This document shows, one piece after another, positions 8,188 to 63,843 of a stretch of 64,000 nucleotides of DNA (its first letter is position 1; each line of letters starts with the position of its first letter). The notes below the pieces were generated by a model that saw only the letters and a program-made list of their open reading frames with translations, did no database searches and was not told the DNA's origin. Position numbers and translations under genes: made by a program. Origin of the DNA: Styela clava. Its lineage: Eukaryota; Chordata; Ascidiacea; Stolidobranchia; Styelidae. Location of the stretch: assembly GCF_964204865.1 (NCBI RefSeq), contig NC_135258.1, positions 21,107,083-21,171,082 of the forward strand, given 5' to 3'.

Positions 8188-9983
8188 TTAAATAAAGTAA
8201 ACTAAAATTGCGGGTATTATAAATAGTCCTGACAATGCAACCCTCTTATGAGGTTGGAACATAATAGAAATTGTTCTCGGCCTTGACATGGGTAGAATGT
8301 TTAAAATCCATGCGTAATATAGTAACAGTGCAATGGTCTTTGCTCCGATTTTCAAAAAGTTAGTTTTCGGTTCTTTTTCGCAGTAGCCACAGCTGACCAT
8401 GCAGTTCTTTTTCATCCATTCTGGATAACTTTTTCCCATAGTTGTGTCATGGCAAAAACCACGTTGGGCCCAAATTGAGCAGTCTTCTGCGAATCCAGGG
8501 TTGTCTTCACAATCGCCGACTTCAGCTGAAATTATGAAACAATTCAGCATGTTGATAATGTAGGAACAAGAGGACCCCAGGTATGATTGAAAGTTGATAC
8601 TAAAATTATTTTAGAATAGTCCGCATAGTTTACGCTTCTTCCAGAATTTTTTGGTTTGTTTATAAGTTTGTCCGACTTTAGAATGTACTTAGTTGAGCGC
8701 ATCAAAACCATGAAAGATTTTATTCGAATTTATGGCGCTCCCGAAGTATGTGCACCAAGATGGCGCACAACCTGAACCCTAACCGGGTACACATACTATG
8801 TTCAGGTTGTGCGCCATCTTAGTGCACATACTTCTGGAGGTCCGAATTTATTTATCGAACGCTGTTAACAACAAAGACGGAGAATTTTGAATGAGTCGAA
8901 TTCAAAGCGTCCAAATCATGCAAAATATCGCGAAATGGCTATACGGCATCAATCTCTAGAAGGGGACAAGTTAAAATAAAGTCAAACTCATTGACGACGC
9001 ACCTGACCAATATCTTGGTGGTACAGGAGGTGCTCTAGCTCCGGCTAATCTAGGAGATACTGAGCTTTTCACTTTTGCTTCATCTCGCAATACCTGAAAA
9101 AATTTGTACGAATACAGTATATGCAAATCCACAAACATAACAGTCGAGAGTAGTCGAACGTAATGAAGATTCGGAGCACAATTATCACATCAGTTTATTT
9201 TATCTAAAATACAGGCACTTTTATCTAAATTCCACCAATAAAGAAAATGCAACCTATTTCTTCTACATATGTTTTCAAATCGGTAGTGATATTTCTTGAT
9301 GGTATATCCTCTTCAAATTCTACAAGGTGATATACTTTTGGAAGCATCTATATTTTGGTTGAATGAATGGGCAATTTTCAGCAGAAAGGGACCTATAGGA
9401 GTACCTATATAACCAATGTATTTTCTTGAAAATTCCTCAATTCCCGCCTTTTAACTTGTAAGATGTACCATGAATAATGTTTTTAGATTATAAAAATTGC
9501 AATTGACTGGAAACCACCACTATATTTCTTTACAGGTTTTGTAGTAATTTGATTTTTATCGAATTCCAGTATTTTCAATCGTTCACTTAAGGCGTTTGCG
9601 ACCTAACAAAAATCCGTCACGGGCCACTATTTTCCCACCTGGTTTAATCACATTCGGATTATTTGATTCACAAAAATGCAAATAGTAATAACGTGAAAAG
9701 TGAATTTATGCAGCATTCAGCAGTTCTTTTAGTAGTTGATTTTCAGCAGAAAGCGAAAATTTGAAATGTCGTCGATATTACACCATGGAAATCTATGCAT
9801 TAGATCAGTAATAAATTTAAGTATTTATCTTTTAACAAATTTTTAATAATTTTCCTTACAAAATTGTTTCCTATTTCATTCAAATATTTTGAGTAATTTA
9901 CGTGGACTCACTTCTTCCAAGTCCTCAGCTCTTGTGAAAGCAGTTACAATGAATATGACAAGTAATCTTCTAGAAACCGCCAT
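8188..9983 (-). CDS. Secreted ShKT-domain protein, 3 exons, 166 aa
   Basis: Exons on the minus strand are 9983-9912, 9093-9003 and 8525-8188. All introns are GT-AG and the phases match (72, 91 and 338 nt, 167 codons with stop). Exon 1 starts with a signal peptide (MAVSRRLLVIFIVTAFTRA) whose likely cleavage precedes EDLEE. Residues about 28-54 are a basic, Pro-rich linker. A six-cysteine ShKT domain follows, with Cys at 60, 70, 79, 96, 100 and 103, the WA motif and the SCGYC ending typical of the family. ShKT domains occur in cnidarian channel blockers and as accessory modules of metazoan proteases and secreted proteins, so the domain alone does not fix a function. The C-terminal 60 residues are unusual: two hydrophobic stretches, the last at the very end, which could be a GPI-anchor signal or membrane segment. 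An 8-bp-flanked MITE sits in intron 2. Confidence 0.8.
8734..8843. mobile_element. Palindromic MITE, hAT-type, copy 2
   Basis: A 110-bp palindrome (ggcgctcccgaagtatgtgc to cttctggaggtcc) with a perfect 8-bp target duplication, gaatttat, at 8726-8733 and 8844-8851. It lies in intron 2 of the ShKT gene and has no room for coding sequence. Confidence 0.85.
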
Positions 9984-13179: not shown

Positions 13180-24190
<11,011 letters not shown>

Positions 24191-30372: not shown

Positions 30373-31046
30373 GGGTCTAGTATAGTTTAGGGGTCTGGTA
30401 TAGTTTAGTACCGTACCACATGTACTTCTAGTTGACCTGGCTCAACAATTTTTTCATATGTCAATCCTAACCACCACCTGACTACGTCACCGAAAAATTA
30501 CGTCATTTCGACGTCACAGTGGCGTAATAAGGCCCATGGAAGTATGCGGATGGTCGTCCAAAACGATCACCCGAAATCGAGCAAGCAATTTCTCTCGTTT
30601 TTTCGTCACAACGATCACGATAGGAGGGTCTCATGTACTTTCGTACCTAACATACTTCTGGTGGGCGTAGAATAACAATATTTGCATGTGTCAATCCTAA
30701 CCCCCACCTGACTACGCCATCCACAAATTATGTCTCTACGACGTCACAGTGACGTAATAGAGCCCCTTAATCTATACGAACTGTCATCCTAGACGCGCTC
30801 ATCTGCGCACCCGAAATCGAACGACTATCTCTCTCGTTTTTTCGTCGCGACGATCCAATATGAGAGAGATCGCTGACGTTAGTAAGTTCTTTATCGTCGG
30901 CGCCGATGCCATTTCGGGTGATCGTACGTATATTTGGCAAGCTCTATGACGTGATTGTGATGTCGTAGTGACGTAATTTTTGTTATGCAAAATTCGTTAT
31001 GCTACGCCCACCGGAAGTACATGTGGTACTAAACTATACTAGACCC
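30373..31046. mobile_element. MITE with terminal inverted repeats
   Basis: The left end has ggggtctggtatagtttagt then accacatgtactt (with the first 19 bases duplicated in tandem). The right end, aagtacatgtggtactaaac tatactagaccc, is its inverse. The interior contains two diverged copies of a block with tgtcaatcctaacc and cacctgactacg. No coding capacity was seen. An eroded relative occurs at 50113-50370. Confidence 0.75.
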
Positions 31047-31433: not shown

Positions 31434-31460
31434 GCATAAAACAGTTATTTTGAATTGAAA

Positions 31461-34460
31461 ATGAATGATCTGGCTTTTCCCAATGCACCTGCAACGGATA
31501 CAGTAGTTTGGTATGAATTTCTACTTGATGATGACAAATTGAAAATACATTTGGATTCTACAGATCCTGATCCAAGTGGTACAGAACTGATTAAAAAGTT
31601 TTTCGAACAAGCGAACAAACCAATTAATGACCAGGGCAAAATTTTAGCACCACCAGAGAACCAAAGAAATTTATCATTAAAATGTTTGGCTTTGCAAACT
31701 GCTGCACTTTTACATTGGGATCTCAATCTATTTGAAAAAGAATTGCCAATGTCAAGTCGACATCAATTGTTGAGGGAGTTGCTGGCGTTTTGTAATGCTA
31801 GCTCTTTTCCATCACACACAGTTGATATCAAAAACCAAATCATAACAATGCACGATCATACTATAATGGCAATCGTATTGTATTGTAGATGGGCAGCCAG
31901 GACTGTGGTCAAATCTGCATTTCCAATGAAGCCTGGGGGTCGAATTACTCCCACTGCTCCTACACCAGGGTTTTATCAGCCAAATGCACAACAAAGATAT
32001 GAGGAACTCAAATCACAAATCGTTTCTATCGTCAAAGATCAATGTTTTGATATTGTTCAAACTTTAGAGTCATTTTTACAGCAAGTTAAAAGACCAGTGT
32101 ATGTCCCTGATTTTGATGTTATAAAAAACAAGCAGCTATGTTCAACTGAAGAAACCACAGGCTGGCTGATATCACTAGAAGAATTACATGCACAAGTTTG
32201 CTATGACTTGGGCTGTTTGCATTTTATGCATGGTTTCTATGACAAAGCTTATGAAATGTTCGGCCACGTTAAAGAATGGTTGAAGTGTTTTACAGATACT
32301 TCAACTGGATATTGTGACGTTAATAACGATACATTGAAGGGTTATTTGATTGCATGTGCTTCTCTTAATCCGGACCAAGAAGTGGTAAAAAGTGTGAGCA
32401 ATGATACTATTTATCATAAAGTATTAAAGTGTCTGGAGAATATAACAAGCTCTGATATACGTGAGCTCGGTACATTGTTAATGGACGACATCAAACTCAA
32501 TGAACTTTCGATGTCTTTCCGTGACCAAATTGAGCAAGATATTTTATATGAAAATCAGCAATCTACAAATCTTGACTTATATTTTGATGTAATTTGGTCA
32601 AACGCACTGTGTAGAACAGTAAGAGGATATCCACAGCCAAGTTGCTTATGGACGTATGAACTGAATGTTGCTCAACTGCAAAAAATATTAGGATTTGTCC
32701 AAGAATGTTATAGTTGTTTGTCACGGAAGGGAAGAAAAAAATTGGGAGGATTTTTATACTCTCTTCACAACAATCTTTTTAAAGAACCCTTAAGACATCA
32801 TCTACTGCAATGTGAAGTTACACGACTTTGTCTTTCTCCCAAGGACTTGCATGATATGGAGCAGCGCGAAACTAGTCGTGACAATGTTGTGGTGCAAGAT
32901 TCTCCGACCAGCCCGGACAGTGCTTCATCAGGACCAGTTGTTGCAATAGAACTTGAATGCCAGTTGATCACCTGTTTCGAACCGGATGTACTGAAACAAA
33001 CATTGACTAAGCTCCATAAAATATCTCCCGAAAGCCAGCACTGGAGGATATGTGACAAGTGGAATATAACGCAAGATTATGAGTCTGTATTGAAGGGAAT
33101 CAGTGTTACAATCAGCCGGGATTTGATGTACATTTTGTTAGCAAAAGTGAATCAATGTTTGGCTGATTCTGATCAGTATCAGACAGCAAAGCATATACTG
33201 AATTACATTCGAGATCATGGAAAAAGCCTTTCTTTTAAGTTGCACAAGATATCTGCTAATGAACTTCTGCGAATAGAGTTACTTGAATTAATTAATGACC
33301 CCAGTTTGAAGTTTTCGAGTGAATCTGAATGTCATGAGCTACGGGAACAATTATCTGATGTTATAAAGAGAGCTATTCAACATCTCTCAAGCAGAACTTC
33401 AGATGTCGTTCCTTCGCCGCCGGAACTCGCAGATTTGAGTATAGCCCTTCTTTTGAACTTAGAGGGGGCAAGTTTTTTTGATTCGTTTGCAAGTCAGTCT
33501 GATGGACAAGTGCGATTTGCTAAAGTTCTATCCAAGGTACACGCCAAGATTTCGTCGTCTTCTCCACCTCACCAAGAAGCAAAACGATCAGCCAGTGATC
33601 TCTGGACCATTTTTACAGCAATTTTTGCTGCAACAACCCACCATCAAAGACGAAGCCAGGATAATTCAATCACAATTGCTAAAGCGAATGATGTGCCAAC
33701 AGGACTCATGTCTCGCCCAGCATTATTGGTAATGTTGAAGAAACTTAAGAATCCAAGGTTACTGCGAATCATCCTTTCTCTTCTAATTCGTCTTCACAGC
33801 ATCTGTCAAGAAGATATTCTGATAGATATCAAAGTTCCTTTGTTAGATTTATGGCCATCTTCATCATCTGGAATTCAGCATACAATCAGTGCCGCGTGTG
33901 TGGTAAATGCTGTCCGAGAAGTGCTTGCACACTGCCTTAAAATTCAGCCCCATTATCCTCTTTGGTTACATACCCAAGCTGATGTGGATTTTGCTTATTG
34001 CAATTATCCTGCTGCATTTAGGAATTATTTGAAATTGATCGCTGTTCAGTCAAATTTTTTCAACAGAGACTTGTTAAATTCAGGCATATTAGATAGTCAG
34101 ATGGTGCGAAGAATGGTCAAATGTTGTCTACAAATGAGGTGCAATACACAGGCTGCAGTTCTTTGTCAAATGATCAAAGAAGTCGATTACTCCACTGCAT
34201 TCAAAGCTTTACAAGAAAGTCGAGAGCGCTCAGATGCTATGGAGGTCCATTATCGAGAGCATTTTTGGGATGTAGAATTGCTAGAGTACGCTACATGTAT
34301 GCATCGAGATTCTGTGGAAGTTGCTAAAAAGGAATCGGCAACGCGAGCTCTAGCAAATCCTGATTTAAATGTTTGCAACACACCAAAAGTTTTGAAAGAA
34401 GCGCAGTCATTTAAAAGCAGACGTTTTTTCAGATCGCTAGCCAGACAGTTTCTGGTTTAA
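31461..34460 (+). CDS. INTS8: Integrator complex subunit 8, intronless, 999 aa
   Basis: INTS8 is a helical-repeat scaffold subunit of the nuclear Integrator complex, which processes snRNA ends and terminates paused RNA polymerase II. In known complexes it links the phosphatase module (PP2A) to the core. The protein aligns along its whole length with animal INTS8 (human about 995 residues). N-terminal WYEFLLDDDKLKIHL is followed by PENQRNLSLKCLALQTAALL, then central CQVCYDLG-like and DLMYILLAKVNQCL, then a C-terminal IDYKTAF-type region reading EVDYSTAFKALQESRERSDA and a basic end. The ATG at 31461 is chosen because an in-frame stop lies at 31449-31451 and the conserved N terminus begins there. 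There is no intron in 3 kb, whereas the vertebrate gene has many. The frame is undamaged, and no poly(A) tail or target duplication was seen, so an expressed gene is more likely than a processed copy. AATAAA lies at 34489-34494. Confidence 0.95.
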   Translation: MNDLAFPNAPATDTVVWYEFLLDDDKLKIHLDSTDPDPSGTELIKKFFEQANKPINDQGKILAPPENQRNLSLKCLALQTAALLHWDLNLFEKELPMSSRHQLLRELLAFCNASSFPSHTVDIKNQIITMHDHTIMAIVLYCRWAARTVVKSAFPMKPGGRITPTAPTPGFYQPNAQQRYEELKSQIVSIVKDQCFDIVQTLESFLQQVKRPVYVPDFDVIKNKQLCSTEETTGWLISLEELHAQVCYDLGCLHFMHGFYDKAYEMFGHVKEWLKCFTDTSTGYCDVNNDTLKGYLIACASLNPDQEVVKSVSNDTIYHKVLKCLENITSSDIRELGTLLMDDIKLNELSMSFRDQIEQDILYENQQSTNLDLYFDVIWSNALCRTVRGYPQPSCLWTYELNVAQLQKILGFVQECYSCLSRKGRKKLGGFLYSLHNNLFKEPLRHHLLQCEVTRLCLSPKDLHDMEQRETSRDNVVVQDSPTSPDSASSGPVVAIELECQLITCFEPDVLKQTLTKLHKISPESQHWRICDKWNITQDYESVLKGISVTISRDLMYILLAKVNQCLADSDQYQTAKHILNYIRDHGKSLSFKLHKISANELLRIELLELINDPSLKFSSESECHELREQLSDVIKRAIQHLSSRTSDVVPSPPELADLSIALLLNLEGASFFDSFASQSDGQVRFAKVLSKVHAKISSSSPPHQEAKRSASDLWTIFTAIFAATTHHQRRSQDNSITIAKANDVPTGLMSRPALLVMLKKLKNPRLLRIILSLLIRLHSICQEDILIDIKVPLLDLWPSSSSGIQHTISAACVVNAVREVLAHCLKIQPHYPLWLHTQADVDFAYCNYPAAFRNYLKLIAVQSNFFNRDLLNSGILDSQMVRRMVKCCLQMRCNTQAAVLCQMIKEVDYSTAFKALQESRERSDAMEVHYREHFWDVELLEYATCMHRDSVEVAKKESATRALANPDLNVCNTPKVLKEAQSFKSRRFFRSLARQFLV

Positions 34461-34800
34461 ATCCTATCTGAGCGACAATTGCCATACTAATAAATAACTC
34501 ACTTTGCAACATTCAAGTCAAATTTTAGCTTTTTGGGGGTGTTTGAGGAAGAATTTTATTTTTTTTGTGTAATTGAAGGCTAAATATGGTTCATGTGAAT
34601 AGAAATGTGGCAGTGTGTGGGCTTATCATCTTACTGACATGCAATTTCATCTACAAGTTTCAAATGTCGGCGACGTTTCATCTTGGGCCGAAATTCCGAG
34701 TTCCCAACATTCATTACTTGTTTATTTTTCCGCTTTACTGGCAATCAAACCGAACAACCGTTATCCGATAAACGAATTAAGTATGCAATTGTGCAGCAGT

Positions 34801-34872
34801 GATCAAAAAGCACTTGTTGGTGATTTTGATCAAAAAGCACTTGTTGGTGATTTTGATCAAAAAGCACTTGTC
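34801..34872 (+). repeat. 27-bp tandem repeat, 2.7 copies
   Basis: The unit gatcaaaaagcacttgttgg tgatttt is repeated almost exactly, with the third copy ending after cacttg. It lies 340 bases past the INTS8 stop. The open frames across it have no other support. Confidence 0.85.
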
Positions 34873-46879: not shown

Positions 46880-47665
46880 ACTATTGTAGGGGAAGCTGGG
46901 ACATGGGGTAAAGTAAACAATCAGCTCTTACACTCATACTATATGCGGAATCAGGCGGTTCGATGTTTGAATCCACCCTTCTGCTCGACGTGAGACGGTC
47001 TGAAAATATTTTTTACCATGGGGAAAATTGAACCGGGTTTCAGTGGGACATGCTCCACTGGGTATAATTTGACAGTGTTTGATCCACTAAGTACTTAGAG
47101 TCCTATAGACGTTTTTTTGTGTAATATTAAAGTATCTTTTGGCCTATGGCCCAATATGGAATATATTCTAAATTTCAAAAATATTTTTCAGAGTGATTCA
47201 GATTCGAGAAAGTAAAATTTTTGTCTTTGATCTGAATTAGAAATTATACTTCTCAATATATAATTGTTGGTTTTGTTTTATTGGAGGCAGCGAACAATTA
47301 AGTGATTGAAAGAATCACGCCATCGTTATTTGTTCTTTTTGAACAGCACTCAAAACTCGTATTTGATGTATTTGGCCTTTTTAACAAAAACTGTCATTGT
47401 CGAGAATGGAAATATTCAACATGTACATCCGTCTTCAATTAATGTAACTGTTTTAAAACTTTTTCATTGATCGTTTTCATTGTCTTGTTGGTCGCAGTTG
47501 CCCCATGTCTTAGCAGAGTCATTGTTGGCCCACAGAGTCGTAGTGGCCCCCATATCTTAGCAGAACCATAGAGTATGTTATGAAGTTCAGAACTCATTTC
47601 AATTGGTTGAAATTAGGCATAATTCAAAAGTAAAACAATGAATTTATTTCATATTTAATAATACC
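46880..47665 (+). repeat. Dispersed repeat, copy B
   Basis: Inverted relative of 35960-36990, with the same block order. Unlike copy A it contains about 155 extra bases at about 47412-47580, which are the 3' end of the repeat-protein gene. The sequence ttcaacatgtacatc occurs at about 47414 and 47677, on either side of that region. Confidence 0.68.
47464..47575 (-). pseudogene. Degenerate 3' end of the repeat-protein gene
   Basis: The last unit reads DSAKTWGNCDQQDNENDQ-stop, identical to the end of the intact gene at 48755 except for a Tyr-to-Cys change. The stop is at 47466-47464. Upstream units (towards 47575) are frameshifted and mutated. The 3' flank (about 47430-47463) also resembles 48722-48754. 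No start or signal exon belongs to it. Confidence 0.85.
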
Positions 47666-48754
47666 AGTCTGAATGTTCAACATGTACATCTACAATGCAG
47701 AATTTTCCGATACGAATCTCCCCAAAGTGGTTTTATGTTGTGAATGCAGAAAACTTTTTTAATGAGTGTTTTGAAAAAAGATCTGAAAAACTTTGAACAT
47801 TGATTCAAAATATATACTGTATATTAAATTTCCAAATTCGAAGTCCCACAGTTCTTTAGATGATGATGATGATTCTTTGCTTGTTTTTAATGCATACTTC
47901 GATTAATTTAACAGACTGCCCCATTGTGCCCCAGGGTGTGTCATAATGTGTCCCACAGGTGGGGTGCAATAGAACATTGGACGAACGTTTTTCAAGCCCT
48001 CAACTACAGTTACCCCTCTATTCATTAGTCCCACGATGTTGCTAATTCTTTAGTGGACCAATTATCAGAGCATATTCTTTTGCGACAGTCTTGAATCATA
48101 CATTTTGTCGAAATGTATAAACATTCACTATGATGCTTTTTGGTAAATAACTAAATTTCTATATCTGATCTTCTATTAAGAACCTCTGCGTTGTGAAATT
48201 CCCTCTACCTTTATGGAGTTTTCATTACAATATAGATTTGGTGTTTTAATTCCGGCTTCAACTGACCTGATCTAAATGCCGCATGGGAGGATGTCAGCGA
48301 AAACAACCTTTGAACCTACTCGAAATCCGGCTTATACAAGAAAAATCGAATCCGACAGTAGATTAAAGCAATCCGGCTACAACTTCAGCTGTCATTTTTG
48401 GGATAACAACACTTTTACTCTAACAATGCGTTGAATGCCGGTTTCGACATAATGAATGATACTAGGTGGGTAGATTTATATCAGTGGGTAGTGACAGGAT
48501 CAGAATATAGTTGACTGCTTCAAGCTATGCCCTTTTCCCTATTAAAAACCGAATCGTCAAAGCCTCTTGATAAAACGTGTTTGTGCCAAATTTCCCAAAA
48601 CATCACTCCAAACATAATAAACATACAAATGTTGAATGCAATGTAGTATTATATTCTGAGTAATAAGGCTAGCCTTTAATCTATGAAGAAAAGAAATATG
48701 TATGTTTTGCCGGTTCCGTTCGTCTTCAAGTAACGTAGCTGTTTAATTTAATTT
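47666..48754. other. 3' flank of the repeat-protein gene
   Basis: AT-rich. No further gene or bounded repeat recognised. Confidence 0.4.
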
Positions 48755-51069
48755 TCACTGATCGTTTTCATTGTCTTGTTGGTCGTAGTTGCCCCAAGTC
48801 TTAGCAGAATCATAGTTGCCCCATTTCTTAGCAGAGTCATAGTTGCCCCATTTCTTGGCCGAGTCATAGTTGTCTTGTTGGTCGTAGTTGCCCCATGTCT
48901 TAGCAGAGTCATAGTTGCCCCATGTCTTAGCAGAGTCATAGTTGTCTTGTTCGTCGTAGTTGCCCCATTTCTTAGCAGAGTCATAGTTGTCTTGTTGGTC
49001 GTAGTTGCCCCATGTCTTAGCAGAGTCATAGTTGTCTTGTTGGTCGTAGTTGCCCCATTTCTTAGCAGAATCATAGTTGCCCCATTTCTTAGCAGAGTCA
49101 TAGTTGTCTTGTTCGTCGTAGTTGCCCCATTTCTTAGCAGAGTCATAGTTGTCTTGTTGGTCGTAGTTGCCCCATTTCTTAGCAGAATCATGGTTGTCTT
49201 GTTGGTCGTAGTTGCCCCATGTCTTAGCAGAATCATGGTTGTCTTTTTGGTCGTAGTTTCCCCATGTCTTAGCAGAGTCATAGTTGTCTTGTTGGTCGTA
49301 GTTGCCCCACGTCTTAGCAGAATCATGGTTGTCTTTTTGGTCGTAGTTGCCCCATGTCTTAGCAGAGTCATGGTTGTCTTGTTGGTCGTAGTTGCCCCAT
49401 GTCTTAGCAGAATCATGATTATCTTGTTGGTCGTAGTTGCCCCATGTCTTAGCAGGATCATGGTTGTCTTTTTGGTCGTAGTTGCCCCATGTCTTAGCAG
49501 AGTCATGGTTGTCTTGTTGGTCGTAGTTGCCCCATGTCTTAGCAGAGTCATGGTTGTCTTGTTGGTCATATTTGCCCCATGTCTTAGCAGAGTCATGGTT
49601 GTCTTGTTGGTCGTAGTTGCCCCATGTCTTAGCAGAGTCATGGTTGTCTTGTTGGTCGTAGTTGCCCCATGTCTTAGCAGAGTCATGGTTGTCTTGTTGG
49701 TCGTAGTTGCCCCATGTCTTAGCAGAGTCATGGTTGTCTTGTTGGTCGTATTTGCCCCATGTCTTAGCAGAGTCATGGTTGTCTTGTTGGTCGTAGTTGC
49801 CCCATGTCTTAGCAGAGTCATGGTTGTCTTGTTGGTCGTATTTGCCCCATGTCTTAGCAGAGTCATGGTTGTCTTGTTGGTCGTACTTGCCCCATGTCTT
49901 AGCAGAGTCATAGTTGCCCCATTTCTTAGCAGAGTCGTCCGCTTTTCCTAGTATAAATGGAGGTAACTCAGAAAATTGATTCCGTGCTAATGTAAACAAT
50001 TGTACCGACAAAAAAGCAATTACATGAGCAAAAGCCGTAAAAAAAAATTTACGCTTAATTTCCCCAAAATCACACCTGAACGAAGATGGAACTATGAAAT
50101 AGCTACCATTACGGAGTCTAGTGTAGTTTGATACCACAAGTACTTCGAGTGAGCTTAAAAAAACAAATTTTGCATTTTCAATTTCTGACCTTCACCTGAC
50201 TTCACATCCAAACATTGCGTCACTGCGACGACACAATCACGTAATACAGCTTACCACAATATAGCGACGATCTCCCGTATAAGTGTCTGCGACAATGATA
50301 ACAAACTCACCAAATCCAGCCATCTCCCATGTTTTAACGTGATTGTGATATCGAAATGATGTCATTTTGGATGGCGTGGTTGGGGGGGGGGGGGGGGCAG
50401 TAATACCAGATCAATAGTCTCAAACCGACGTTTGAAATATATCTATCTGCAGACTCATAAAGAGAAGAAATAAATTTAAATGAGTTATATTTAGAATATA
50501 ATTTGCAACTTACTTTCCTCCAGGGATTTTGCACTAAAAAAAGATAATTTTTGACATTAAGAAAATTACTAATAGATATATTTGTAAATACTACATAAAA
50601 TTTTTATGTGATTTAAAATTGCTTCGTGTACATTGAATAATCAAACTAAACGAAACTTTGTTTTGAGTTTTTGAACCAGTCGGAAAGTACTTATGAGCAA
50701 TTTTTTGTCATTGTCCGTGGAGGCGCCGTGTCTAATTTTGGCGTGGGATCAATGGAACATGTATAAACAAATGTTTTCACATTTAGTGATTATTTGCGTT
50801 CGAGAATTGAGCTAAGTCGACTGTCATAAAAAATACATATTGTTATGAGTGTTTAGGTTCAGGCATTGAATTGTGAGGTGCAATGTTCTTGTGCGGGAGT
50901 TGGTTAATTGGAATGATTACCTCGTCATGCGAATGTATTTACTTGACAATTTTTTTCAACAGTTGATATGAAGGGAAAGTAAGTAAAAGCAGCTTGACAA
51001 ATAATTGTTAGTTGTAACTTACTTGATGCCAAGTCCCAGCACGAGAAGAATCAAAATTGTTGTTTTCAT
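48755..51069 (-). CDS. Secreted tandem-repeat protein, 3 exons, 419 aa
   Basis: Minus-strand exons are 51069-51023 (47 nt), 50533-50514 (a 20-nt microexon) and 49947-48755 (1193 nt). All have GT donors and AG acceptors and join in phase to exactly 1260 nt. Exon 1 plus the microexon give a signal peptide (MKTTILILLVLGLGINA) followed by KSLEERKAD. The remainder, residues 27-419, is 28 repeats: 22 regular units of 15 residues (DSAKTWGNYDQQDNH or variants), five short 9-residue units (DSAKKWGNY type) and a last unit ending DQQDNENDQ. Variable positions are T/K, N/K, Q/E, Q/K and H/Y. DxAK, WG and YD are nearly invariant. Units are hydrophilic, net acidic, with one Trp and at least one Tyr each and no Cys. 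There are no regular KR sites, so a multi-peptide hormone precursor is unlikely. A structural, adhesive or extracellular coat role is possible, but no family is recognised. N-terminal units tend to end in H and C-terminal ones in Y. Confidence 0.85.
48758..49947 (-). repeat. 45-bp minisatellite encoding the 28 repeats
   Basis: The DNA repeats with a 45-bp period, plus 27-bp short units, all multiples of three. Because the unit lacks stops in several frames, long shadow frames exist on both strands (such as 48776-49951 on the plus strand). The substitution pattern groups neighbouring units, as expected for local duplication and conversion. Confidence 0.9.
50113..50398. mobile_element. Eroded MITE fragment and poly-G tract in intron 2
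   Basis: The stretch ctagtgtagtttgataccac aagtactt with cacctgacttcac and cgtcactgcgacg resembles the MITE at 30373-31046. A run of 16 G's follows at about 50382-50397. Both sit in the intron before the repeat-coding exon. Confidence 0.5.
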
Positions 51070-51132
51070 CTTTCCTGTTGTTTGCCTCAGTTTGAGTCGA
51101 CGAAACTGTGATTTACAGTGAGAAATGACGGC

Positions 51133-51140
51133 TTTTTATA
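51133..51140 (-). promoter_or_regulatory. TATA box of the repeat-protein gene
   Basis: The minus strand reads GTATAAAAAGC, with the TATA 64 bases upstream of the ATG. An initiator-like tcacagtttcg lies about 30 bases downstream. The same TATA and spacing are kept in the duplicated copy at 53101-53108, which supports it as the true core promoter. Confidence 0.75.
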
Positions 51141-51698
51141 CACTTCTACATCCGATATTTTTAAAAAAAGTTAACAATAGTCTTCCCCGTGGCGACACAC
51201 AAAAAATAATACTGCATTGAATCCCGCGGAAATGGCCTATTCAAATTCTGATAATCGATTCCAATAAAATTGATGATAATGACATCCACATATAGAAATT
51301 TTCAGTTCGTGATGTGAAAGAATGCTTGGGAATGAATATAGATATATGATACAGTGCTTTGACTATCGATTTATTCGAATTTGATATCATTAAACTTCCA
51401 TACGTTATTAAAATTTCCTGAAATATATATTGGAAAATTGATTTGATATCCGCTAGTCGATTATTTTTTGGTGGAAGTTGGAAGTTCGTGAAATGTATTT
51501 GGTGAATTCAATACACGGATGTTTTTTTCATCACTTTCATAACAGACATTATGGGTCATATTGGAGGATGTGGGATATCTAAATGAGGTCTTTTATACAA
51601 TGCAATTTTGGAGGATATACAATCACAATTTGTCCCACCGTTTGAACAAGCGACGCGATCACTTCCCCTAATTATCAGCCAATCACATGGATTTATAT

Positions 51699-52553: not shown

Positions 52554-52835
52554 GTTTATATGATCACGTGATATAAGTTTTTGAAAAATTTGCTATATGG
52601 ATATATATACAAGATATATGAACAGTTGGTTTGATAGCTGCGCAAGATAATGTCAATTATGTTGAAATCTAGTTCTTTTGATGTTATCAAATATGTCCCG
52701 CCTGATTGAAAATTGGGATTTTTTTGTATCAAGATAGTTGACAACTGTTTTAAAAGATAAGTACGGTAATATAAAATGGCATACTTAAAAATGTCGTCTG
52801 TTAGCGGACAATACTTTTAGTGCAAATATCGTTTG

Positions 52836-53640
52836 ATAATTGAGCAAATTCGACTGTCATAGAAAATATATTGTTATGAATCTTTAGATTTAAGCATTAA
52901 ATTGTGAAGTACAATGTTCTTGTTCTTTACTTCACTATATATTAACGGCAAGTAAAAGCAGCTTGACAACTATTTGTAAGTTGTAACTTACTTGATGCCA
53001 AGTCCCAGCATGAGAAGAATCAAATTGTTGTTTTCATCTTTCCTGTTGTTTGTCTCAGTTTGATTCGACGAAACTGTGATTTACAGTGAGAAATGACGGC
53101 TTTTTATACACTTCTACACCTGATATTTTGGAAAAAGTGAACAATAGTCTTTCTCGTGGCGACACATAAAAAATAATACTGCATTGAATTCCATGGAAAT
53201 GGCCTAATCAAATCCTGATAATCGATGTCAATTAAACTGATGATAATGACATCCACATATAGAAATTTTTAATCCGTGATATGAAAGCAACTTTGGCTAT
53301 GAATCTAAACTATAGTTCTATTCGAATTTGATATCATTAAACTCCCATACGCTATTGAAATATCCTGAAATATTTATTGCAAAATTGAATTAATTTCCGA
53401 TAGTCGAATATTTTTTGGTGGAAGTTGGAAGTTCGTGAACGGTATTTGGTAAATTCAATTCAAGGATATTCTATTCAATATCTCTATAACAGATATTTTG
53501 GGCCATATTGGCGGATGTAGGAGATCCAAATGAGGTATTTGAGTTTAGTTGTGACTCGTACGAGACACCGTTTGAACAAGCGACGCGATCGCTTCCTAAT
53601 TATCAGCCAATCACATGGGTCTATACCAGACATGAACAAA
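52836..53640 (-). pseudogene. Broken duplicate of the repeat-protein promoter and exon 1
   Basis: This stretch matches 50795-51698 over its length, including the 3' edge of exon 1, the TATA region and several hundred upstream bases. The exon-1 copy is 53037-52992. It has 46 nt rather than 47 because one T of a four-T run is gone, so the frame shifts to a stop at codon 5. Start codon, splice donor and TATA (53101-53108) are otherwise kept. No microexon or repeat exon follows it before 51699. Confidence 0.85.

Positions 53641-57543: not shown

Positions 57544-63843
<6,300 letters not shown>

Follow-up and report, generated by a model that had tools for sequence, protein, structure and literature searches.

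What kind of protein, if any, is encoded by a long, in-phase array of short aromatic repeats in the ascidian Styela clava? The array lies in a window of 64,000 nucleotides (the whole stretch of DNA analyzed: contig NC_135258.1 of assembly GCF_964204865.1, forward-strand positions 21,107,083 to 21,171,082; positions below are counted from its first nucleotide). A preliminary description of this window had proposed three exons, including a 20-nt microexon, that join in phase into a signal peptide followed by 28 repeat units belonging to no known family. The exon structure is confirmed by the window DNA. On the minus strand, the three exons join into 1260 nt encoding 419 amino acids and a stop, and the two introns, of 489 and 566 nt, both start with GT and end with AG. 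The features of the gene are the following.

51133 to 51140, minus strand: TATA box TATAAAAA, beginning at 51140, 71 nt upstream of the ATG; also present in a decayed upstream copy
51023 to 51069, minus strand: exon 1, 47 nt; signal peptide MKTTILILLVLGLGI and two bases of an Asn codon; within the Clavanin match
50514 to 50533, minus strand: microexon, 20 nt; Asn completed, AKSLEE, Arg begun; within the Clavanin match
48755 to 49947, minus strand: exon 3, 1193 nt; Arg completed, KAD, 28 repeat units, stop
48680 to 48754, minus strand: first part of the 3′ UTR; one ATTAAA signal at 48752 and another at 48680

The open frame itself is weak evidence for a gene, because two further frames through the array are likewise open over 399 codons each. 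Stronger support for a coding gene comes from the leader, which matches a protein family, as detailed below. A non-coding satellite, which the preliminary description had named among the outcomes that would refute it, is rejected on the strength of this match and of the in-phase joining of all three parts (leader, microexon, and array). Translation of each alternative reading (microexon skipped, intron 1 retained, or intron 2 retained) runs into a stop ahead of the repeats. The gene is most probably real.

The protein consists of MKTTILILLVLGLGINAKSLEERKAD, a leader of 26 residues, and then 28 units of the DSAK-x-WG-x-Y type. Twenty-two units are 15 residues long, with the consensus DSAKTWGNYDQQDNH (Y is the last residue in 7 of these 22); five are 9 residues long and read DSAKKWGNY or DSAKTWGNY; the last has 18 residues. 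Ala-3, Lys-4, Trp-6, Gly-7, and Tyr-9 are identical in all 28, in agreement with the one Trp and near-invariant Tyr per unit described earlier. The protein is also acidic and Cys-free, as had been noted: from residue 20 onward its calculated pI is 4.5, and these 400 residues include 81 acidic ones, 63 aromatic ones, and 45 that are Lys or Arg; Cys is absent throughout.

Two pieces of the array, scanned against Pfam, matched no family above its cut-off, and array patterns found no match in viral contigs. A 68-residue shortened version gave four weak matches among PDB sequences, the best of which (E 0.011) aligns the leader with a protein containing an ankyrin domain; they are taken as chance. 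AlphaFold prediction of exon 3 alone, from a single sequence, was of low confidence; the best model (mean pLDDT 49.6, pTM 0.37) has short strands that keep step with the 15-residue unit, and the other four have mean pLDDT of 29–33. Two leader pieces and two repeat-unit pieces were absent from the mainly openly accessible literature searched. Among the titles retrieved from it on clavanin and Styela clava, mainly antimicrobial peptide (AMP) reviews and peptide studies, none concerned such a gene.

The leader is a different matter. Residues 1–26 match the Pfam family Clavanin (PF05452) over profile positions 1–26 of 80, with an E value of 1.9e-11 and 44.4 bits, twice the curated cut-off of 21 bits. 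A shortened protein with few units gives the same family over residues 1–27 (E 5.8e-11). The earlier statement that no known family is involved holds for the two scanned pieces of the array and fails for the leader. The match covers both exon junctions. Removal of the microexon residues leaves the exon 1 part joined to the array with 22 bits, barely over the cut-off. PF05452 is matched neither by the microexon segment when exon 1 is left off nor by any of three scrambled leaders of the same composition. Since the full match needs both exons joined in phase, the first junction is independently supported, and the second agrees, as the last matching residues come from exon 3. Low-score clavanin matches have been reported in a snail venom study, as have two peptides whose N-terminal domain is clavanin-like (PMC11359391), and the leader part of this profile can weakly match signal peptides of unrelated animals. 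The family claim made here rests on the full 44 bits and not on the 22 that remain without the microexon. The comparison strongly suggests that the leader belongs to the clavanin precursor family and comprises its signal peptide and first pro-residues, and it supports secretion of the protein. Scanned at once, all 419 residues matched no Pfam family; the repeat composition probably trips the bias filter of the search. Where a repeat array dominates a protein, even a clear link to a family can escape a profile scan of the full length.

Does the rest of a clavanin follow? The published layout of the clavanin precursor has 80 residues, of which 19 are signal, 10 pro, 24 mature, and 27 posterior (PMC8719109), and clavanin A has five Phe among its 23 residues; by our reading, the 24 mature residues include an extra Gly. 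The amphipathic core of 23 residues, rich in Phe and His and with Gly after it, is absent from the S. clava protein described here. The match stops at profile position 27, before the start of the mature peptide, there is no Phe in the whole protein, and neither of two array pieces matches PF05452. When the window was searched by tblastn with clavanins A and D as queries, nothing convincing came up (best E 0.16). From its sequence, the gene is most probably a known clavanin leader that carries a repeat array as its cargo in place of an antimicrobial peptide.

Whether the array descends from another part of the precursor was examined with a sequence taken as the 27-residue posterior peptide of clavanin. 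Pfam recognizes this peptide at profile positions 54–80 (E 1.5e-15), and it is acidic, its 6 D and 1 E outnumbering its 2 K and 2 H. It has DQQDN and K-x-x-G-x-Y in common with the repeat units. Its local alignment to three tandem units scores 45, a value also attained in 125 of 5000 shuffles of the units and in 104 of 5000 shuffles of the peptide; the shuffles that reach the observed score number 337 of 5000 against the whole array and 286 of 5000 against the C-terminal 36 residues. A profile made from 19 windows of the units, of which 9 are distinct, gives the peptide 0.5 bits, and 276 of 2000 shuffles do as well or better (1878 of 2001 sequences scored). Descent of the repeat from the acidic tail of clavanin is hinted at by the tandem-unit alignment and not by the profile, and may serve as a lead rather than a result. 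The pro-segments of clavanin are said to "contain cations" (PMC8719109), a wording that we judge an error because this posterior peptide is acidic.

The precursor from which the clavanin leader comes is itself cut (layout in PMC8719109), which raises the idea of a polyprotein cleaved into many short active peptides, with KK or single Lys as conceivable cleavage sites; Lys-4 is present in all 28 units and KK in 8. We regard this as improbable. Contrary to the preliminary description, dibasic pairs do exist, namely eight KK, which all fall within DSAKKWG units, and a single RK, located in the leader, but KK is missing from 20 of the 28 units, and dibasic sites therefore do not separate all units. 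Gly is never seen before a basic pair (WGK occurs in 4 units). Moreover, the 15-residue units have a calculated charge of about −2 each, unlike cationic AMPs, and DSAKKWGNY has one of +0.9.

The surroundings of the gene bear on its history. Three stretches repeat parts of it.

52950 to 53540, minus strand: decayed 5′ copy; upstream region, TATA box, exon 1, and start of intron 1, 84–95% alike to 50981–51593
52813 to 52923, minus strand: further copied piece of intron 1, 82% alike
47430 to 47570, minus strand: decayed 3′ copy; final repeat units, stop codon, and beginning of the 3′ UTR

In the 5′ copy, identity is 95% across the core promoter and exon 1, and exon 1 is frameshifted. In the 3′ copy, 47430–47532 is 85% alike to 48721–48823, and degenerate units continue to 47570. 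The two decayed partial copies that flank the gene indicate that the locus was duplicated and then partly lost. The gene could be a functionless duplicate of a clavanin-type gene, now drifting, with an array grown by replication slippage. These adjoining copies would fit such a history, and so would the codon changes between units. There, pN/pS is 0.23 in the true frame, the lowest of six (two frames have no synonymous types at all), but 2510 of 20,000 permutations that keep the base changes reach the observed 6 synonymous of 13 types. Purifying selection between units is unsupported by this control, and we do not claim it. Against drift, 419 codons remain open, the splice sites, TATA box, and leader are intact, and five residues are kept in place in every unit, a constancy that recent amplification could also explain. 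On balance, a functionless duplicate seems hardly likely.

Further features of the window were noted. Part of intron 2 (about 50116–50390) and 30398–31044 have stretches 71–84% alike in both orientations, probably a dispersed repeat. On the plus strand, the open frame at 31443–34460 (1005 residues) matches Integrator subunit 8 (TPR_INTS8, E 8.4e-115); just past it, a perfect 27-nt tandem repeat at 34800–34871, of 2.7 copies, reads DQKALVGDF in an open frame and could be a coding expansion. A 46-nt tandem repeat of about 4.5 copies occupies 20887–21096. On the minus strand lie an open frame with a ShK-like domain (8188–8610, E 7.3e-05) and a fragment of a phosphoinositide 3-kinase accessory domain (63457–63843, PI3Ka, E 1.1e-07).

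What might such a protein do? For its expression and role, we infer the following and give it a probability of about 0.4: as a relative of the clavanin genes, the gene may encode a polyanionic array that binds and packs cationic AMPs in hemocyte granules and then scaffolds them outside the cell. The protein would be made in clavanin-producing cells (hemocytes, morula cells), and its leader would route it to clavanin granules, where the two would be stored and from which they would be released together. Within the granules, the array would bind cationic, His-rich AMPs, keeping them quiet and concentrated; after degranulation, it would retain them in extracellular nets or tunic. A common leader implies at most common secretion routing, not common function.

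Several observations are consistent with this proposal. From residue 20 onward, the protein has a calculated charge of about −36 at pH 7.4 and still about −22 at pH 5.5. Clavanins are described as products of S. clava morula cells (PMC5465252). Anionic pro-segments are described as neutralizing AMP charge, the centrocins and strongylocins of sea urchins being examples (PMC10608444). In Botryllus, an epitope of an AMP propeptide beyond the mature peptide is reported in morula-cell granules and in extracellular, bacteria-trapping nets (PMC9966394). Clavanins A and D are also reported to be strongly present in the endostyle of S. clava (PMC9953650), and hemocyte expression is for this reason not to be assumed. 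The slightly cationic DSAKKWGNY units speak against a granule polyanion, as does the absence of a purifying-selection signal in the codon changes between units.

A close rival is a phenolic cross-linking protein, in which array Tyr (and Trp, Lys) would be hydroxylated or brominated, oxidized by phenoloxidase, and hardened into tunic, clot, or capsule. The 63 aromatic residues would suit such chemistry, and S. clava styelins are described as bearing DOPA, 6-bromotryptophan, dihydroxylysine, and dihydroxyarginine (PMC10608444). Phenoloxidase-containing granulocytes have also been reported to feed tunic cross-linking. However, modification of Tyr or Trp is not readable from DNA, and YY never occurs in the array, which therefore cannot yield the adjacent DOPA/TOPA seen in all nine tunichromes tabulated in PMC3039461 (Table 1). 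We consider cross-linking possible, if somewhat unlikely, and a matrix role stays among the live explanations. A broader form of the granule proposal draws on both ideas. The clavanin leader may be a delivery cassette whose cargo can be exchanged, and the array an unrecognized polyanionic phenolic scaffold of ascidian morula-cell granules, one that packs cationic AMPs and later makes up the matrix in extracellular nets or in wound tunic. This broader form we hold to be unlikely.

Clavanins figure as antimicrobial peptides in the literature searched, where clavanins proper are described from S. clava. A relative that shares their leader and carries other cargo would show that the leader and exon module travel independently of the antimicrobial core. 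The array would in addition be a concrete candidate for what retains AMPs in ascidian granules, nets, or tunic.

It is useful to set this gene beside known systems. Its closest counterparts are the clavanins and clavaspirin of S. clava (PF05452), with which it shares the signal peptide and first pro-residues (profile 1–27). In place of their Phe/His-rich 23-residue core it has the 28-unit array, and its length is 419 residues, compared with the 80 given for the clavanin precursor (PMC8719109). The styelins of S. clava and botryllin of Botryllus schlosseri are likewise ascidian and are described as secreted hemocyte products, and the pro-segment of botryllin beyond the mature peptide is reported in granules and nets (PMC9966394). 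Their cargo is a cationic AMP, and their descriptions in these sources mention no repeat array, a distinction drawn from description rather than sequence. Aromatic residues are a main feature here, as they are of ferreascidin and the tunichromes, Dopa/topa products of ascidian blood cells (PMC3039461). Tunichromes have adjacent DOPA/TOPA, whereas the array has no YY and does not look like a tunichrome precursor. Exchangeable cargo behind a constant leader has a parallel outside the ascidians. Precursors of the preprodermaseptin type in frogs combine one conserved leader with exchangeable cargo; the animals are unrelated, and the likeness to the present gene is an analogy only. The clavanin precursor itself is listed in a review table as similar to the prepropeptides of several amphibian AMPs (PMC10608444).
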